A stretch of DNA of 33,484 nucleotides, taken from NCBI GenBank assembly GCA_903970555.1, contig CAJCJD010000074.1:1-33484 (forward strand), given 5' to 3'. Positions 20,801 through 26,322 of the stretch are shown in pieces. This stretch comes from Vulcanimicrobiota bacterium (GTDB taxonomy: Bacteria > Pseudomonadota > Gammaproteobacteria > Xanthomonadales > Rhodanobacteraceae). The notes under the pieces are model-generated. The model searched no databases. It had not been told where the DNA came from and saw nothing but the letters and a program-made list of their open reading frames with translations. Position 1 is the first letter of the stretch; each line of letters starts with the position of its first letter. Made by a program: the position numbers and the translations under genes.

Positions 20801-23770
20801 CTGCGCGATCACCAGCCCGAACCGCAGATCGCACACGTGGTGTTCGAGCCGCATAGCATCGAGCCGGAACATATCGAGCATGCCGAAGCCGAAACGCACG
20901 TCGATCCTATCGAGGCGGCTCCGGTGGCCGAAGAGACAGAGGAAGCGCCTGCGTCTGCCTTGCACGCCGAGCCTGTTGAGGACGACTACACCGCCGAACT
21001 GCTGGAAGAGCTTTCCCAGCACGAGTCGAGCCAGGTTGTCGAGGAAACGCCGGCTGCCCACCACGTTCACGTGCCTAGCACCGAAGACGAAGAGTTCGCC
21101 GCGCTGCTCGCCAGCCTGGAAGCGCTAGAGCCCGATCAGCCTGCTGCAGCGACACCTGTCGACGAGGCGGCACCGCTCGAGCGTGCCATCGAATATGTCG
21201 CCGCTAACGAACCGATCGACGAAACACCCGCCGACGAAGAGGCGATTGCCGAAGTTGAACACGTTGTTCCGGTTCCTCACGAAGAGGTGCCCGTAGCGGA
21301 GACCGAGACCGCGCACGAAGAGGAATTCGTCGCGGAAACCGAAATCGCGCACGAATCGATCGACGCCGTTCCGGCTGGCGATTTGATGAGCTTCGGCCAC
21401 ATCGATCCCGATCTGCTGGAAATCTTCAGCGAAGAAGCCCGCGAAATTCTCGACGACGCTGATGGCGTGCTGGCTCAATGGCATGCCGAGCCGACGGAAG
21501 TCGCGCACATGGCAGGCCTGCTGCGCGCCTTGCACACCCTGAAGGGTGGTGCGCGCATCGCCGGCCTGACGCCGGTAGGCGACCTCAGCCACGCCATTGA
21601 AACCTTGCTGGAGCGTTCGCACGGCATCGATCCGCAGCGCACCGCGCCGCTGATCGGCACACTCGAAGCCGCCTTCGATCAGATGCACGGCCTGGTACAG
21701 CTCGTATCGCAGGGCAACGCTATCGCCTATCCGCACGCAATGATCGAACGCCTACTTGGCGGCGTCGAAAGCGCGCAGGAAGCGGTTGTCACCGAGGCCG
21801 TTGTTCAGCCGCAAGCACCAGCGCACGCACAAGCGCCACAACATCAGGCTGTGGATCTGCCCTCGCTGCTTCCCGACGAAGACCTGCAGCAGGAAGAATC
21901 CTCACGCACCGGTCAGGAACAGATCCGCGTACGCGCCGACCTGCTCGACAACCTCGTCAACAACGCCGGCGAAGTTGCGATCTACCGTTCGCGCCTGGAG
22001 CAGCAGGTTTCTGCCTACCGCTTCAACCTGGTCGAACTTGAGCAAACCGTCGCACGTCTGCGCGGTCAGCTGCGCATGCTGGAAATCGAAACGGAAGCGC
22101 AGATCATCGCGCGTTTCCAGCGCGAACATCGCGAAGCTGGTATCGGGGTGTTCGATCCGCTCGAGCTCGATCGCTTCTCCCAGTTGCAGCAGTATTCGCG
22201 TGCGCTGGCCGAATCGGTATCGGACTTGGTGTCGATCCAGAACATGCTGGACGAACTCACCCGTCAGGCCGAAACGCTGCTGATCCAGCAGTCGCGCGTC
22301 AGTTCGGAATTGCAGGAAGGTCTGCTGCGCACCCGCATGCTGCCGTTCGACACCATGGTGCCGAACCTGCGCCGCACGCTGCGCCAGGCCGCACAGGAAG
22401 AAGGCAAGAGCGCCCAGCTGTACGTGGAAGGCGCGCACGGCGAAATGGATCGCAACCTGCTCGACCGCATCAAGGCGCCGTTCGAGCACATGCTGCGTAA
22501 CGCCGTTGCACACGGTATCGAGTCGCCGAAAGACCGTCTCAAGGCGAACAAACCGGAAGAGGGCGCCGTGCGCATTCGCGTCGCACGCGAAGCCACTGAG
22601 GTGGTCGTGCGCGTCAGCGACGACGGCCGCGGTCTGGACCGCGATGCGATTCGCAATTGCGCGATCGAGCGCGGCCTGGTCCGTCCGGAAACTCGCCTCA
22701 GCGACGACCAGTTGCTGGCGCTGATCACCCAGACAGGCTTCTCCACCGCCAGCACCGTCACCCAGCTTGCCGGTCGCGGCGTGGGTATGGACGTGGTGGC
22801 CAACGAGATCAAGCTGCTTGGCGGTTCGCTGGCGATCGAGTCGCACAAGGGCGAAGGCACCACCTTCGTGTTGCGCCTGCCGTTCACCCTCGCGGTGACG
22901 CAGGCCATCCTGGTGCGCATCGGCGAATCCAACTTCGCCATTCCGATGACCTCGGTGCAAGGCGTGGCCCGCATCAGTCCGGACGAACTGGCGCAGCGGA
23001 TGGCCGAGGACAATCCGCAGTTCGAATACAACGGCGAAGAGTACGGTATTCACGACCTGTCGGAGCTGCTGGGTCTAGCCGCCGGTCACGTTGGCGACGA
23101 GGAACAACTGCCGTTGCTGCTGACCCGCGCAGGTGAACTGCGTGCCGCCATCCGCATCGATGCCGTGATCGGTTCACGCGAAATCGTGGTGAAGTCGGTC
23201 GGCCCGCAGGTGAGTTCGGTGCCGGGCATTCTTGGCGCCACCATCATGGGCGACGGCTCGGTGCTGGTGATTCTCGACCTGGCGCCGCTGGTGCGTCATG
23301 GCCTCGCCCGTCGTGAGCAGCGTTTGATCGAGGGCATCGAGCACGCCACCACCGCACCGGTCATCGAAGATGTACGCACCCGGCCGCTGGTCATGGTGGT
23401 GGACGATTCGATCACCATGCGCAAGGTCACCGGCCGCGTGCTCGAACGTCACGAGTATGAAGTGGAAACCGCGAAGGACGGTCTCGATGCGTTCGAGAAA
23501 TTGCACGAGCGCGTGCCCGATCTAATGTTGCTCGACATCGAAATGCCGCGCATGGACGGTTACGAGCTGGCGATCCAGATGAAGGCCGATCCGCGATTCC
23601 GTAACGTGCCGATCATCATGATCACGTCGCGTACCGGCGAAAAGCATCGTCAACGCGCTTTCGATCTCGGTGTCGAACGTTACCTCGGCAAGCCCTATCA
23701 GGAAGCCGAGTTGCTGGCGCAAATCAGCGAAGTGCTGGAGCAGCGCGCGCAGGAGCCGGTGAATGACTGA
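17849..23770 (+). CDS. chpA: Hybrid chemotaxis histidine kinase ChpA (PilL)
   Basis: ChpA is the central kinase of the Chp system: it autophosphorylates, relays phosphate through Hpt domains, and signals to PilG and PilH. It has 1973 residues. Hpt histidines with the canonical HTLKG context are H717 and H1229. H51 (HQVQG) and H908 (HTLHG) lie in weaker Hpt-like repeats, and other helical repeats between about 160 and 560 have no such His. Acidic linkers lie at about 620-660 and 1000-1180. The CheA core has the N box near 1547-1558 (HMLRNAVAHGIE), DDGRGLD near 1591, and GRGVGMDVV at 1642-1650. A CheW domain follows at about 1683-1815, then a receiver with phospho-acceptor D1896 and K1948. The start has GAGGGGGG 3 nt upstream. 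The stop overlaps the next gene by 8 nt. Confidence 0.97.
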   Translation: MRLQDHIDFTTLQWVKPELDETLALARQALESYVDNPGERDVMRACADNLHQVQGTLRMVELYGAAMVAEEMETLSISLLEDHVRNREDAYAALMRGLMQLPDYLERLSSGHRDVPVVLLPLLNELRASRDQDALSESALFTPNLDAALPIHAPAPTNAADAQRHKNEIAELRLRFQQQMLAWFRGQGAVNQLAGMRKTLNAIATRCVTTPGRRLWWIAAGVLEGLDHGMLKNHAAEVRQLIGRVDRSIRQLIEQGEETLQGGDADDLARKLLYIVAQSKQRSPQMVQLAQTYNLDGLVPDASELEHARGSMTGHNRALLDSVARALKDDLLRVKEALDLFLRQADADPAQLGAQAEVLERVGDTLGMLALNVPRRVINEQRRVLEEIASRLRSPDEDSLLDVAGALLYVEASLDDHIESLGAENEHAEEHSTAMLPRSEARHILATLMSEAVANTGKVKNGIVAFVESGWQHEQLTGMPALMDEVAGAMRMLSSPRPAQIAEGVGRFIGNELCVDQRVPSSAQMDQLADALAALEYYLEAAREHRGGLEHILDVAEHSLGGLGYWPPPLAKALPEDAEEVHAEAPAPVLNESVSLAHGNDATELFLGSSETLAPLAHDLTGLHLVETEATSGSSLSDEGDDWVEIEEEIEEQVSAHDPLAAGAGFQTSTEGIDDDIREIFLEEMQEEIASLRHAQQTWLADPSQLGELTSIRRSFHTLKGSGRLVGASTLGEFAWRVENMLNRVLDGTIQPHEGVQTLVGRAIEALPELLAMLKDGVVPTAPLSAIMQAADHLAAGEQASVEQYASSATETVRRVVRRRVPRVDASIDAIPAATHTDHSVAASQSVEETVATPFTGIIHEPVLPPVDPVLLEILRSEVAQYLQTIRNAVDFADNELPVDDGLLRAVHTLHGAIAMVDIPLLIHLLSPLESLLKRLRAAGQPLSNEGVRLLRQSADVVDEVMAQFDAAHPQLPDASALIARLDELRDHQPEPQIAHVVFEPHSIEPEHIEHAEAETHVDPIEAAPVAEETEEAPASALHAEPVEDDYTAELLEELSQHESSQVVEETPAAHHVHVPSTEDEEFAALLASLEALEPDQPAAATPVDEAAPLERAIEYVAANEPIDETPADEEAIAEVEHVVPVPHEEVPVAETETAHEEEFVAETEIAHESIDAVPAGDLMSFGHIDPDLLEIFSEEAREILDDADGVLAQWHAEPTEVAHMAGLLRALHTLKGGARIAGLTPVGDLSHAIETLLERSHGIDPQRTAPLIGTLEAAFDQMHGLVQLVSQGNAIAYPHAMIERLLGGVESAQEAVVTEAVVQPQAPAHAQAPQHQAVDLPSLLPDEDLQQEESSRTGQEQIRVRADLLDNLVNNAGEVAIYRSRLEQQVSAYRFNLVELEQTVARLRGQLRMLEIETEAQIIARFQREHREAGIGVFDPLELDRFSQLQQYSRALAESVSDLVSIQNMLDELTRQAETLLIQQSRVSSELQEGLLRTRMLPFDTMVPNLRRTLRQAAQEEGKSAQLYVEGAHGEMDRNLLDRIKAPFEHMLRNAVAHGIESPKDRLKANKPEEGAVRIRVAREATEVVVRVSDDGRGLDRDAIRNCAIERGLVRPETRLSDDQLLALITQTGFSTASTVTQLAGRGVGMDVVANEIKLLGGSLAIESHKGEGTTFVLRLPFTLAVTQAILVRIGESNFAIPMTSVQGVARISPDELAQRMAEDNPQFEYNGEEYGIHDLSELLGLAAGHVGDEEQLPLLLTRAGELRAAIRIDAVIGSREIVVKSVGPQVSSVPGILGATIMGDGSVLVILDLAPLVRHGLARREQRLIEGIEHATTAPVIEDVRTRPLVMVVDDSITMRKVTGRVLERHEYEVETAKDGLDAFEKLHERVPDLMLLDIEMPRMDGYELAIQMKADPRFRNVPIIMITSRTGEKHRQRAFDLGVERYLGKPYQEAELLAQISEVLEQRAQEPVND

Positions 23771-25598
23771 CAAGCAAGTCGCGGTCGCGCTGTTCTTCGA
23801 TGATGCTGAACTGGGTGGTCACCTGCGCACTGCGCTCTGCGAGCACGGTGCGCAGATTGCGCATGAAGGTCCGCTAAGCAGTTTCGACGAGGCAAAGCTG
23901 CGTGCGGCAAAGGTCGACGTGCTGGTGGTTAATCTCGATGATGCCGTGGATGACACCACGCTCGATCGTATCTATGGCTTGATCGATGCCGGCAAGACAC
24001 CTGTGGTGTTCAATGATGCGCAGGCCAGCCGCGGTTTGGACGGTTGGGATCGCGCACGTTGGGCGCGGCATTTGGCGTCCAAGGTACTCAACAACGACAC
24101 GATCGACCCGCCGCGACCCGACAACGCGCGAGAGGTCGAGACGCCTCACGTTTCAACGCTTGAAGCAGAGCAGCAAGCAGAACCTGTCCCGGCCGAATCA
24201 CTGGCCGAGGAAACAGCAGCCGACTCGATCGAAGATCTGCCACTCGAACACGATGACTCCGCGCCCGATACCGAAACTCTCGCGGCCGAGCTGGAAGCGT
24301 TGCTAGCTTCCGACGAATCGGTCGACGTGCCGGAAGACGAGTTCGGCTCGGGCCTGAAATACAACGCGGACGATGCGGTGCCGTTGTTGCACGACGGCGA
24401 GTTCGGTGAACACGATGCGCAATTGCACGACGCGCTCCTCGAATCGACACCGTCGACACGCGTCGAGCCACCGGCTTTCAACGCCGATATCGACCACATC
24501 TCCTTGGCTACCGAGTCGGTCGACGGTGCTGAGGATGAGTTCGGCTCCGGCCTGAAGTACAACGCGGATGATGCGTTGCCGCCACTGCACGACGGCCATT
24601 TCGGCGAGCACGACGCGTTCATCGAATCGGAGCCATCGCCGCTGCACATTGAGCCACCGGCTTTCAGCGCCAATATCGATCACCTTTCCCTGGCGTCGGT
24701 CGACGACGAAGACTTCACGCCGGCGGTCATCGAAAAAGCCACACTCGCCCAGCAAACGCCAGCGCCGTCCGCTCCGGAATGGGGCTTTGTCGAAGAAGAT
24801 GAATTCACGGCGCCCAAGGCCTCGGATGACAAGCCAAAACAGAATTTCGGCGTCGAGAAAGTCAGCGCGGCCGATTACCTGGCCCCCGATGCGGACGAAG
24901 TGGAGTCGCCCATCGAGCCTGGCATGACACTGGAGTTAGTTTCGCTTGAGGAAGCTATCGCGCCCAAGCAAGATTACGAGCCCCAGGAAACCCATCTGCA
25001 CGAACTGGAGACCGCATTTGCGCGTTTGTTGGTGCTAGGTGCTGCGCGGGATAGCCAGGCTTCGCTGGCGGTATTTCTTGCCGGCTTGCCCGGCAATCTC
25101 AAGCTTCCGATCTTGCTGACCCAACATCAGAGCAATGGATCGGCCGAACAATTGGCCCAATCGCTCGCGACTCAAAGTGCGTTGCCCGTGAAAGTTGCCG
25201 TTGTCGGAATGCGCGCAAAGCCAGGCGAAATCCTGCTTGTGCCGCGTGGCCAACAAGTGCGCATCTTGCGCGACGGGCAGGTGGAACTTACTGCCGCGAA
25301 CGAGGATACGAACGAACAGGCGCCGTCTATCGATAGCAGCTTTACGATGGCAGCGAATGTGTTCGGGCGTGACGCACTGGCGATCGTGTTCGCCGGGCAA
25401 GCCACCGACGCGGTGGCGGGTGCGCAGGCGATTCATGATCGCGGCGGACAGGTTTGGGTCGAATCGTCCTCCAACGATCATTACGCAAACATGGTGCATG
25501 GCGTGCTAGCCGAACGGCTGGCCAGTTTTTCCGGCTCGCCGCAAGAGCTCGCGGTGCGCCTAATGGATGATCTGAACCATTCTGGGCGGATGTCATGA
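23763..25598 (+). CDS. CheB-like protein of the Chp operon (ChpB-like), predicted to lack the catalytic Ser
   Basis: The 611-residue protein has three parts. Residues 1-110 resemble a degenerate receiver: the strand where the phospho-Asp is expected reads VLVVNLDD, with Asn at that place. Residues 110-410 are acidic and low in complexity and include a tandem repeat (185-250 and 251-312). Residues 420-611 match the CheB methylesterase domain in order: LLVLGAARDS, ILLTQHQSN, LPVKVA, PGEILLVPRG, IVFAGQATDAVAG, GGQVWVE. Aligning to the CheB triad spacing puts A428 at the nucleophile, with H455 and D549 retained. It starts inside the chpA stop region (8-nt overlap). Its last 11 codons form one arm of the downstream structured element. 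ChpB in Pseudomonas occupies the same operon role, so orthology is likely; activity is doubtful. Confidence 0.85.
   Translation: MTDKQVAVALFFDDAELGGHLRTALCEHGAQIAHEGPLSSFDEAKLRAAKVDVLVVNLDDAVDDTTLDRIYGLIDAGKTPVVFNDAQASRGLDGWDRARWARHLASKVLNNDTIDPPRPDNAREVETPHVSTLEAEQQAEPVPAESLAEETAADSIEDLPLEHDDSAPDTETLAAELEALLASDESVDVPEDEFGSGLKYNADDAVPLLHDGEFGEHDAQLHDALLESTPSTRVEPPAFNADIDHISLATESVDGAEDEFGSGLKYNADDALPPLHDGHFGEHDAFIESEPSPLHIEPPAFSANIDHLSLASVDDEDFTPAVIEKATLAQQTPAPSAPEWGFVEEDEFTAPKASDDKPKQNFGVEKVSAADYLAPDADEVESPIEPGMTLELVSLEEAIAPKQDYEPQETHLHELETAFARLLVLGAARDSQASLAVFLAGLPGNLKLPILLTQHQSNGSAEQLAQSLATQSALPVKVAVVGMRAKPGEILLVPRGQQVRILRDGQVELTAANEDTNEQAPSIDSSFTMAANVFGRDALAIVFAGQATDAVAGAQAIHDRGGQVWVESSSNDHYANMVHGVLAERLASFSGSPQELAVRLMDDLNHSGRMS
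24315..24698 (+). repeat. Tandem in-frame repeat in the CheB-like gene
   Basis: Two adjacent copies, 24315-24512 (66 codons) and 24513-24698 (62 codons), each encode EDEFGSGLKYNADDA, then LHDG.FGEHDA, an ES.PS segment, EPPAF, and IDH.SLA. DNA identity is high across the conserved parts, as in a fairly recent duplication. Copy 1 has four extra codons near QLHDAL. A shorter related DEFTAP stretch appears further on at residues 346-351. Confidence 0.9.
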
Positions 25599-25832
25599 TG
25601 TGCAGAAGGCCAGCAGGTTGTGTTGCGCGGCGCAGGGCAGACTGGCCGTCTGTTCAAGCCGCGCGGCGCAGCATGCGGGCCTTCTGCACATCACCCTTCG
25701 GGCCGGCCCTGTCTGTCCGCATATCTGCGGTCCATCGTCTCGACAGACGGGCAGTCCGCCTTCGCCGATGGCCCTGTGATCTGCGATCAGACACGGCCGG
25801 TGACATCTGTCCAGAATGGTTCAGGGCATCCA
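25564..25832 (+). ncRNA. Candidate structured RNA element: three-way junction between the CheB-like gene and chpC
   Basis: The closing helix pairs 25564-25595 with 25801-25832: 28 Watson-Crick pairs, 3 G-U and 1 A-G mismatch. Helix 2 (25596-25693) starts on the next base. Helix 3 is closed by 25703-25715 with 25788-25800 (12 pairs, one C-C) and abuts the closing helix with no gap. A 9-nt linker CCCTTCGGG (25694-25702), with a UUCG-type mini-loop, joins helices 2 and 3. Helix 3 encloses a perfect CCGCA-TATC-TGCGG hairpin (25717-25730) and other short stems. The 5' arm is the last 11 codons of the CheB-like gene and its stop codon opens helix 2. The 3' arm ends 2 nt before the chpC Shine-Dalgarno (GAGGA, 25835-25839). 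It could be an attenuator, a translation-coupling device, a processing site or a MITE-like insertion. I know no named family that matches. Confidence 0.75.
25596..25693 (+). repeat. Long near-perfect hairpin (helix 2 of the structured element)
   Basis: A perfect 16-bp inverted repeat, 25596-25611 with 25678-25693, continues inward through an A-G mismatch, three pairs (25613-25615 with 25674-25676), a G-A mismatch, and a 15-bp helix (25617-25631 with 25658-25672, four G-U). It ends in an apical hairpin 25635-25642 with 25648-25655 (two G-U) and loop TGGCC. All six wobbles are G-U in the + strand transcript. No T run follows, so it is not an ordinary terminator. Confidence 0.88.
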
Positions 25833-25845
25833 ATGAGGACTTCCG

Positions 25846-26322
25846 ATGAGCGAACAGCCACTACCCCGCGAAATCCGCTGCGTCCTGGTGCCGGTGGGCG
25901 ATCTGCGCCTGCTGTTGCCCAACGCCACCGTGGCCGAAGTGATCACGTTGACTACCCCTGAACCGATCCCCGGCGCGCCCGAGTGGTTGCTTGGCCGTAT
26001 CGCGTGGCGCGGTTGGCGCGTGCCGCTGGTTTCCTTCACCAAGCTGACCGGTGCGCAGGAAGGCGATTCGGACCTGAGCGTGCGCGTGGCCGTGCTCAAG
26101 GCACTCGGCGGCAATGCCGAACTACCGTTCGTGGCGGTGGTGACGCAAGGTTTCCCACGCCTGACCACGCTCAATGCGGAGTTGATCATTCCGACACACG
26201 ACGGCAAGCCGTTGCCACGTGGCGTGAAGGCGCAGGTGCTGGTGCGCGACGACGTCGCGATGATTCCGGATCTGGAAGGCATCGAAAACGAAGTGAACGA
26301 GTTGTTGCAGCAGGCGAGCTGA
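25846..26322 (+). CDS. chpC: CheW-domain protein of the Chp operon (ChpC-like)
   Basis: The 158-residue protein is a single CheW-like domain. It starts REIRCVLVPVGDLRLLLPN, continues EPIPGAPEWLLGRIAWRGWRVPLVSF, the CheW core with Gly-Arg-Ile in place of the usual GxxNxRG, and ends in an acidic helix (ENEVNELLQQAS). ChpC in Pseudomonas is a second CheW-type adaptor of the Chp system, probably for additional receptors. GAGGA lies 6 nt before the ATG. It is separated from the CheB-like gene by the structured element, unlike the overlapping genes upstream. Confidence 0.87.
   Translation: MSEQPLPREIRCVLVPVGDLRLLLPNATVAEVITLTTPEPIPGAPEWLLGRIAWRGWRVPLVSFTKLTGAQEGDSDLSVRVAVLKALGGNAELPFVAVVTQGFPRLTTLNAELIIPTHDGKPLPRGVKAQVLVRDDVAMIPDLEGIENEVNELLQQAS

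Follow-up and report, generated by a model that had tools for sequence, protein, structure and literature searches.

According to the accessible text of two reviews (PMC10969869, PMC2229807), processing by RNase III has been reported for the stem-loops of the Correia/NEMIS repeats, and orientation-dependent effects have been reported for ERIC sequences located in mRNA. In parallel, multi-base matched stem changes in RNA genes were explained by copying through template switching, as described in the available part of that study (PMC8794818). Here we analyze the segment at positions 25564–25832 of the window, as we call the whole 33,484-nucleotide stretch of Rhodanobacteraceae DNA under study, and we propose, from the sequence comparisons given below, that this folded segment is very probably a MITE copy with ends common to IS5-family insertion sequences of the genus, and not an in-place chpB–chpC riboregulator.

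Structure of the Folded Segment

The segment sits on the plus strand at the junction of a CheB-like gene (chpB, 23763–25598; Pfam CheB_methylest, E 1.6e-29) and a CheW-like gene (chpC, 25846–26322; Pfam CheW, E 5.6e-16), both gene names being taken over from the earlier note on this DNA, and Pfam identifies upstream of the CheB-like gene a 1973-aa Hpt/CheA-like kinase and a PilJ-like transducer. Its fold energy is −183.7 kcal/mol, compared with a mean of −111.6 (sd 5.7) in 200 dinucleotide shuffles (z −12.6), none of which (0/200) matched it. Refolding reproduced the three-way junction that had been claimed, with a closing stem made of a left outer arm (25564–25595) and a reverse-complementary right outer arm (25801–25832), helix 2 at 25596–25693, and helix 3 at 25703–25800, the tip motif of the latter lying on the minus strand; at the junction there is, in addition, a 3-bp mini-hairpin, CCCTTCGGG (25694–25702), at whose position 20 of 45 aligned copies of the element carry a longer AT-rich insert. 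All these parts were placed on the plus strand from the fold and, except for helix 2, from the alignment of copies, the left arm, which encodes the last codons of the CheB-like ORF, being homologous to the left arm of the other copies. A near palindrome with two inner hairpins accounts for this three-way geometry.

The same note was also right in placing the end of chpB at the foot of helix 2, where TGA at 25596–25598 closes the CheB-like ORF, and in its reading that the 3′ arm stops 2 nt short of the chpC Shine-Dalgarno, GAGGA at 25835–25839. Its failure to match a named RNA family was reproduced as well, with 0 matches at gathering score in an Rfam search of the window, and with 4 microRNA models alone (E 0.64–3.6, far under gathering scores) in a permissive scan of 25450–25950. 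Within the element, no terminator-like site was found, and the sole promoter-like match (9/12) falls within the left arm on the minus strand. By eye, the N-terminal part of the CheB-like ORF (24460–24700) contains near-repeats, with two stretches like CCACCGGCTTTCA.CGCC.ATATCGA.CAC.

A Dispersed Family of Repeats

Sequence matches to the segment occur elsewhere in its own genome, the longest, on contig C239, being 77% identical over most of the query; 30 matches were listed in this search, many of them short and chance-like. Among the matches listed at E <= 1e-4, similar elements were found in 26 of 61 genomes, the own genome included, and in 15 of 16 genomes of the genus. Many of these matches span exactly positions 2–268 of the query, which defines a unit of 267 bp (25565–25831, ends GGATG...CATCC), and these common boundaries, together with the dispersed copies in the same 26 genomes, are what is expected of a MITE. 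The fixed end points in relatives, an alignment of 45 copies, and the empty site of 15/15 congeners described below delimit the inserted copy on the plus strand. Most aligned copies measure 265–290 bp, against 267 bp for the window copy; the 120 stretches used were taken from the genome-search matches listed, with one place entering twice (L149/L370).

The family was also traced with short probes. In a collection of 84,980 species, 74 stretches contained an exact match to a 25-mer of the helix 3 tip, their titles naming Dyella, Rhodanobacter, Mizugakiibacter, and metagenome bins named Lysobacterales or Lysobacteraceae. Of the 151 genomes covered in the order, 13 contained the helix 2 tip pattern (nine family members besides the own genome, and three from outside the family), against one match in each of four genomes for its reversed control, and a 13-mer end motif was found in 29 of 78 family genomes, compared with one match in each of two for the reversed control. 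The same element adjoins many unrelated genes. A literature search, limited in its coverage of subscription journals, returned no paper on the element in Dyella or Rhodanobacter.

Several partial or related structures were seen besides. A 46-bp perfect-looking hairpin (L181, about 1054–1099; G009:C1:4735553-4735598) consists of the two ends of the element alone, L182 and L183 carry the element's ends around other interiors, and two loci of the own genome (L006 on C207 and L010 on C225) are long palindromes with different outer arms (AAGAGCCTGCTTTCAT...) that have the tip GACTGGCYGTC in common with the element.

Insertion at the chpB–chpC Junction

The chpB–chpC junction is without the element in 15/15 congeners (chpC loci L062–L076), and in 14 of these 15, chpB ends in ...VRLVEDFR or similar, with its TGA overlapping the chpC ATG. 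In the window, by comparison, chpB (ORF 23763–25598) ends in ...VRLMDDLNHSGRMS within the left arm, at a new stop codon inside the element (25596–25598), and chpC starts 247 nt past it; the chpC Shine-Dalgarno, located in the old chpB 3′ end, survives on the right of the element, as the empty-site comparison indicates. From the same comparison, the left junction reads CTAATG (25560–25565), its CTAA fitting YTAR, and AAT or AATG is repeated at the right junction (AATG, 25832–25835). With CTAAT as its left flank and AATG as its right one, the window copy shows no cleanly readable target duplication.

The MITE was probably delivered in trans by an IS5-type transposase into a YTAR-like target at the chpB 3′ end. 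The insertion itself, which the uninterrupted junctions demonstrate, swapped the last chpB codons, supplied a new stop, and moved chpC 247 nt beyond that stop while keeping its Shine-Dalgarno. Judged by the congeners, the insertion replaced the ChpB C-terminus and split the overlapping chpB and chpC genes, and a loss of chpB–chpC coupling or an altered chpC level is a plausible consequence. The locus represents a natural break of the chpB–chpC overlap in a chemotaxis-like operon.

One congener differs at this place in another way: its junction (L072, genome G005) is about 30 nt longer, and a stretch of it matches the element's end at 16 of 20 nt, a match equalled in 8 of 5000 shuffles for a stretch picked after the fact. 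This may be what is left of another, separate insertion close to the same point.

Target Sites and the Probable IS5-Family Partner

The IS5 subgroup has a 4-bp YTAR target. Empty sites, as expected for an inserted MITE, were found for four copies, including that of the window: for L122, the site reads GCGT-CTAG-TGCTG in one genome where it is empty, and CTAG flanks the inserted copy left and right; the empty site of L105 is also at CTAG; and the L123 junction is uninterrupted in 14 other genomes. Among 45 full-length copies, YTAR stands at the left end in 13, at the right end in 16, and at both in 6, against a flank background of 0.2%, as would be expected of an IS5-subgroup derivative. The flanking 4-mers are identical on both sides in 5 of 45 copies only; over all copies, 94 of 180 positions carry the same letter left and right, against a mean of 77.6 after shuffling, with 7 of 5000 shuffles as high. 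On these alignments, the target sites fit the IS5 subgroup.

We also considered a TA target duplication of the IS630/mariner type, which was rejected because the 4-bp CTAG empty sites fit better. One base outside the ends, 13 of 39 full-length copies have identical dinucleotides left and right (10 of them TA by eye, in an uncontrolled count); 12 of 61 rows were skipped by the pattern, and 39 of the other 49 were full-length.

A DDE_Tnp_1 transposase was found in 10 of 16 genus genomes. Among the 30 transposase loci listed, L312 and L320 have GGATGCTCTGA on both sides at IS distance, as do L327 with one changed letter at one end and L310 with two, and L315, L319, L332, and L339 have GGATGCTCTGA at one end only. 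The four transposases that were scanned all pass as IS5_4 at the NCBIfam threshold. At its right end, L312 matches the end of a sister type of the element, which has another helix 3, at 27 of 33 nt, through GGCATG, and scores lower with the window type (26 vs. 36 for the sister type), its left end matching the window type at 15 of 17 nt. As is typical of a MITE, then, the 267-bp element has no transposase and has putative autonomous relatives with the same ends (L310, L312, L320, L327); the transposase frames of L312, L320, and L327 are interrupted or shortened. In the own genome, no IS with exactly the element's ends was found, the locus there (L311) having a variant end, GGAAACTCTGA, that flanks a 318-aa open frame on both sides, and in G009, no IS-sized pair of end motifs was seen among the matches listed. 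PF01609 gave no match in the copy-bearing genomes G001, G006, G010, G012, and G014, so either the partner was lost in these five or another enzyme served, and their lack of PF01609 counts against current activity. Genome G003 has many near-identical transposase copies (L310–L339, L151–L175), with 37 PF01609 and 18 Y1_Tnp matches.

Covariation and Proposed Re-Matching of the Arms

RNAalifold predicted 105 pairs in the 45 aligned copies, 64 of them with changes on both sides. By direct count, 97.8% of cells pair in these copies, and there are 349 cells with both-side changes, compared with 75.7 in shuffles and 21–57 with partners slid. The outer stem alone, with 31 pairs and 98.0% of cells paired, has the character of a terminal inverted repeat. 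Covariation, which is usually read as a sign of functional RNA, had been proposed in the earlier note as a check on its RNA element. It is indeed strong, but the sequences that show it are copies scattered over other loci. A transposable element can thus look like a strongly covarying RNA, and covariation by itself is no proof of a functional one.

The one-sided departures from Watson-Crick pairing were counted in 78 full-length independent copies. In the outer stem they are balanced, with 36 G.U vs. 34 A.C cells at 11 vs. 11 positions; in helix 2 they favor G.U on the plus strand (90 vs. 19 cells, 16 vs. 4 positions, p 0.012), G.U being also the commonest state at four further positions; and helix 3 leans the opposite way (29 G.U vs. 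44 A.C cells, 8 vs. 14 positions, p 0.29). Insertions common to two genomes were compared as well: the one common to G011 and G006 (L105/L348) has mirrored substitutions and a mirrored 1-nt deletion in both arms, and the one common to G010 and G009 (L372/L385) has three mirrored substitutions, both-sided changes being accompanied in these orthologous pairs by one-sided ones. Since a constraint on a one-strand RNA should favor G.U, the balance in the outer stem speaks for a DNA-level process there, and together with the mirrored deletion, it indicates copying of one arm onto the other at the DNA level. The re-matching of the outer arms thus points to a DNA-level process, most simply a template-switch (quasi-palindrome) correction by which one arm would be rewritten from the other and the two would be kept complementary. 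Selection by the transposase for matched ends could account for the terminal part only. In a further pair (L119/L150), copies in two species share their flanks and have quite different outer arms, either because the arms were exchanged or because the same spot was struck by two insertions.

Orientation Relative to Genes

The strand of neighboring genes was called from codon usage in 400-nt flanks of 124 sequences, L367 being left out for a short flank, and 115 insertions remained after joining copies with shared flanks, with the call missing for 19 right and 30 left flanks. Over all types, the right-hand genes are 72 sense and 24 antisense. When the insertions were divided by helix 3 type, a split made after the first count, the 86 window-type copies gave 63:10 on the right, a balanced 35:31 on the left, and 28 to 5 codirectional pairs, the 23 copies with another helix 3 gave 7:11, and 6 others gave 2:3. 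A second caller, working without training, gave 61:10 and 28:6, the two callers concurring on 122 of the 123 joint calls. A second set, mostly of other genera, contained 66 copies, of which 36 were new with enough flank; 2 of the 36 matched insertions already counted, and 31 independent ones were scored. These gave a weak, non-significant 15:13 overall, and 9:6 by row count for 15 window-type copies. The sense bias is thus strong in the first, mostly Dyella set and is not established elsewhere, and where it holds, it would be compatible with an RNA-level effect of the element family as a whole. About 20 of the 63 sense right-hand genes appear, by eye, to have their start codon no more than about 12 nt from the element's end, which would place any Shine-Dalgarno of theirs inside the right arm.

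Alternative Explanations

The earlier note had proposed a junction-specific cis-regulatory RNA, in which a terminating ribosome melts the 5′ arm and thereby sets chpC expression. Such a reading draws on the very stable fold, on the positions of the chpB stop, at the foot of helix 2, and of the chpC Shine-Dalgarno, just past the 3′ arm, and on the strong covariation within the family. As a conserved device it is contradicted by the congeners: 0/15 of them have the element at the orthologous junction, an outcome that the earlier note had itself named as refuting, so a conserved role in sensing chpB translation is excluded. The element's occurrence beside many unrelated genes and the lack of strand preference in the outer stem also speak against this regulator, which we regard as very improbable. 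This does not concern the present genome taken singly, in which the insertion may affect chpC; considering the mRNA effects reported for Correia/NEMIS and ERIC in the review text available to us, such an effect would not be unusual. Equally little credit is due to a REPIN/BIME-like element with two inversely oriented hairpin units that a Y1 (RAYT) transposase would mobilize. The inner hairpins do bear related tip motifs on opposite strands and lean opposite ways in their G.U/A.C counts, helix 3 not significantly so by position, but G006, with 13 element matches among those listed, has no Y1_Tnp, and the end motif (12-mer, <=2 mismatches) at 26 Y1 loci is single in 8 and paired in 0, so no association with Y1 transposases was found. 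Furthermore, the ends and the target sites of the element fit IS5.

More serious is the question of what keeps the arms matched, given the same MITE. Compensatory selection on a folded RNA or cruciform, instead of template switching, would agree with the both-side changes in 64 of 105 pairs and with the G.U preference of helix 2 on the sense strand, but not with the G.U/A.C balance of the outer stem or with the deletion that is mirrored between the two arms in one orthologous insertion, and we hold it to be a minority possibility, less likely than the copying of arms proposed above. With a similar degree of reserve, we put forward tentatively that the MITE may act as a mobile 5′-leader module, with template-switched outer arms, a helix 2 under RNA selection on the sense strand, and copies of the window type retained in sense before genes. 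The covariation would then have been made partly by DNA copying, and the G.U/A.C strand balance would separate the two causes. If the sense bias holds, this would be a transposon spreading a structured mRNA leader. The family, with many independent insertions, some of them present in two species, provides material for testing template switching against compensatory selection.

Comparison with Known Systems

The closest relatives of the element are, in our reading, the IS5-family insertion sequences of Dyella (NCBIfam NF033581, transpos_IS5_4, e.g., L312), which share with it the terminal GGATGCTCTGA, YTAR-type flanks, and a right end that resembles the sister type over 33 nt, and from which it differs in having no transposase and a palindromic interior. 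Going by the accessible text of the two reviews (PMC10969869, PMC2229807), Correia/NEMIS and ERIC are likewise small dispersed non-autonomous elements, found beside genes or fused to them, whose transcripts form stable stem-loops; they have other hosts and other ends, and a three-way structure is not named for them in that text. The Caulobacter CIR repeats, compared here through their description in the available part of one review (PMC2229807), also have two arms and a linker, without the closing 5′–3′ stem of our element. As for the maintenance of hairpins by template switching, the likeness lies in matched stem changes produced by copying, which the part of the study available to us (PMC8794818) treats in RNA genes, whereas here the same process is proposed for a dispersed MITE.
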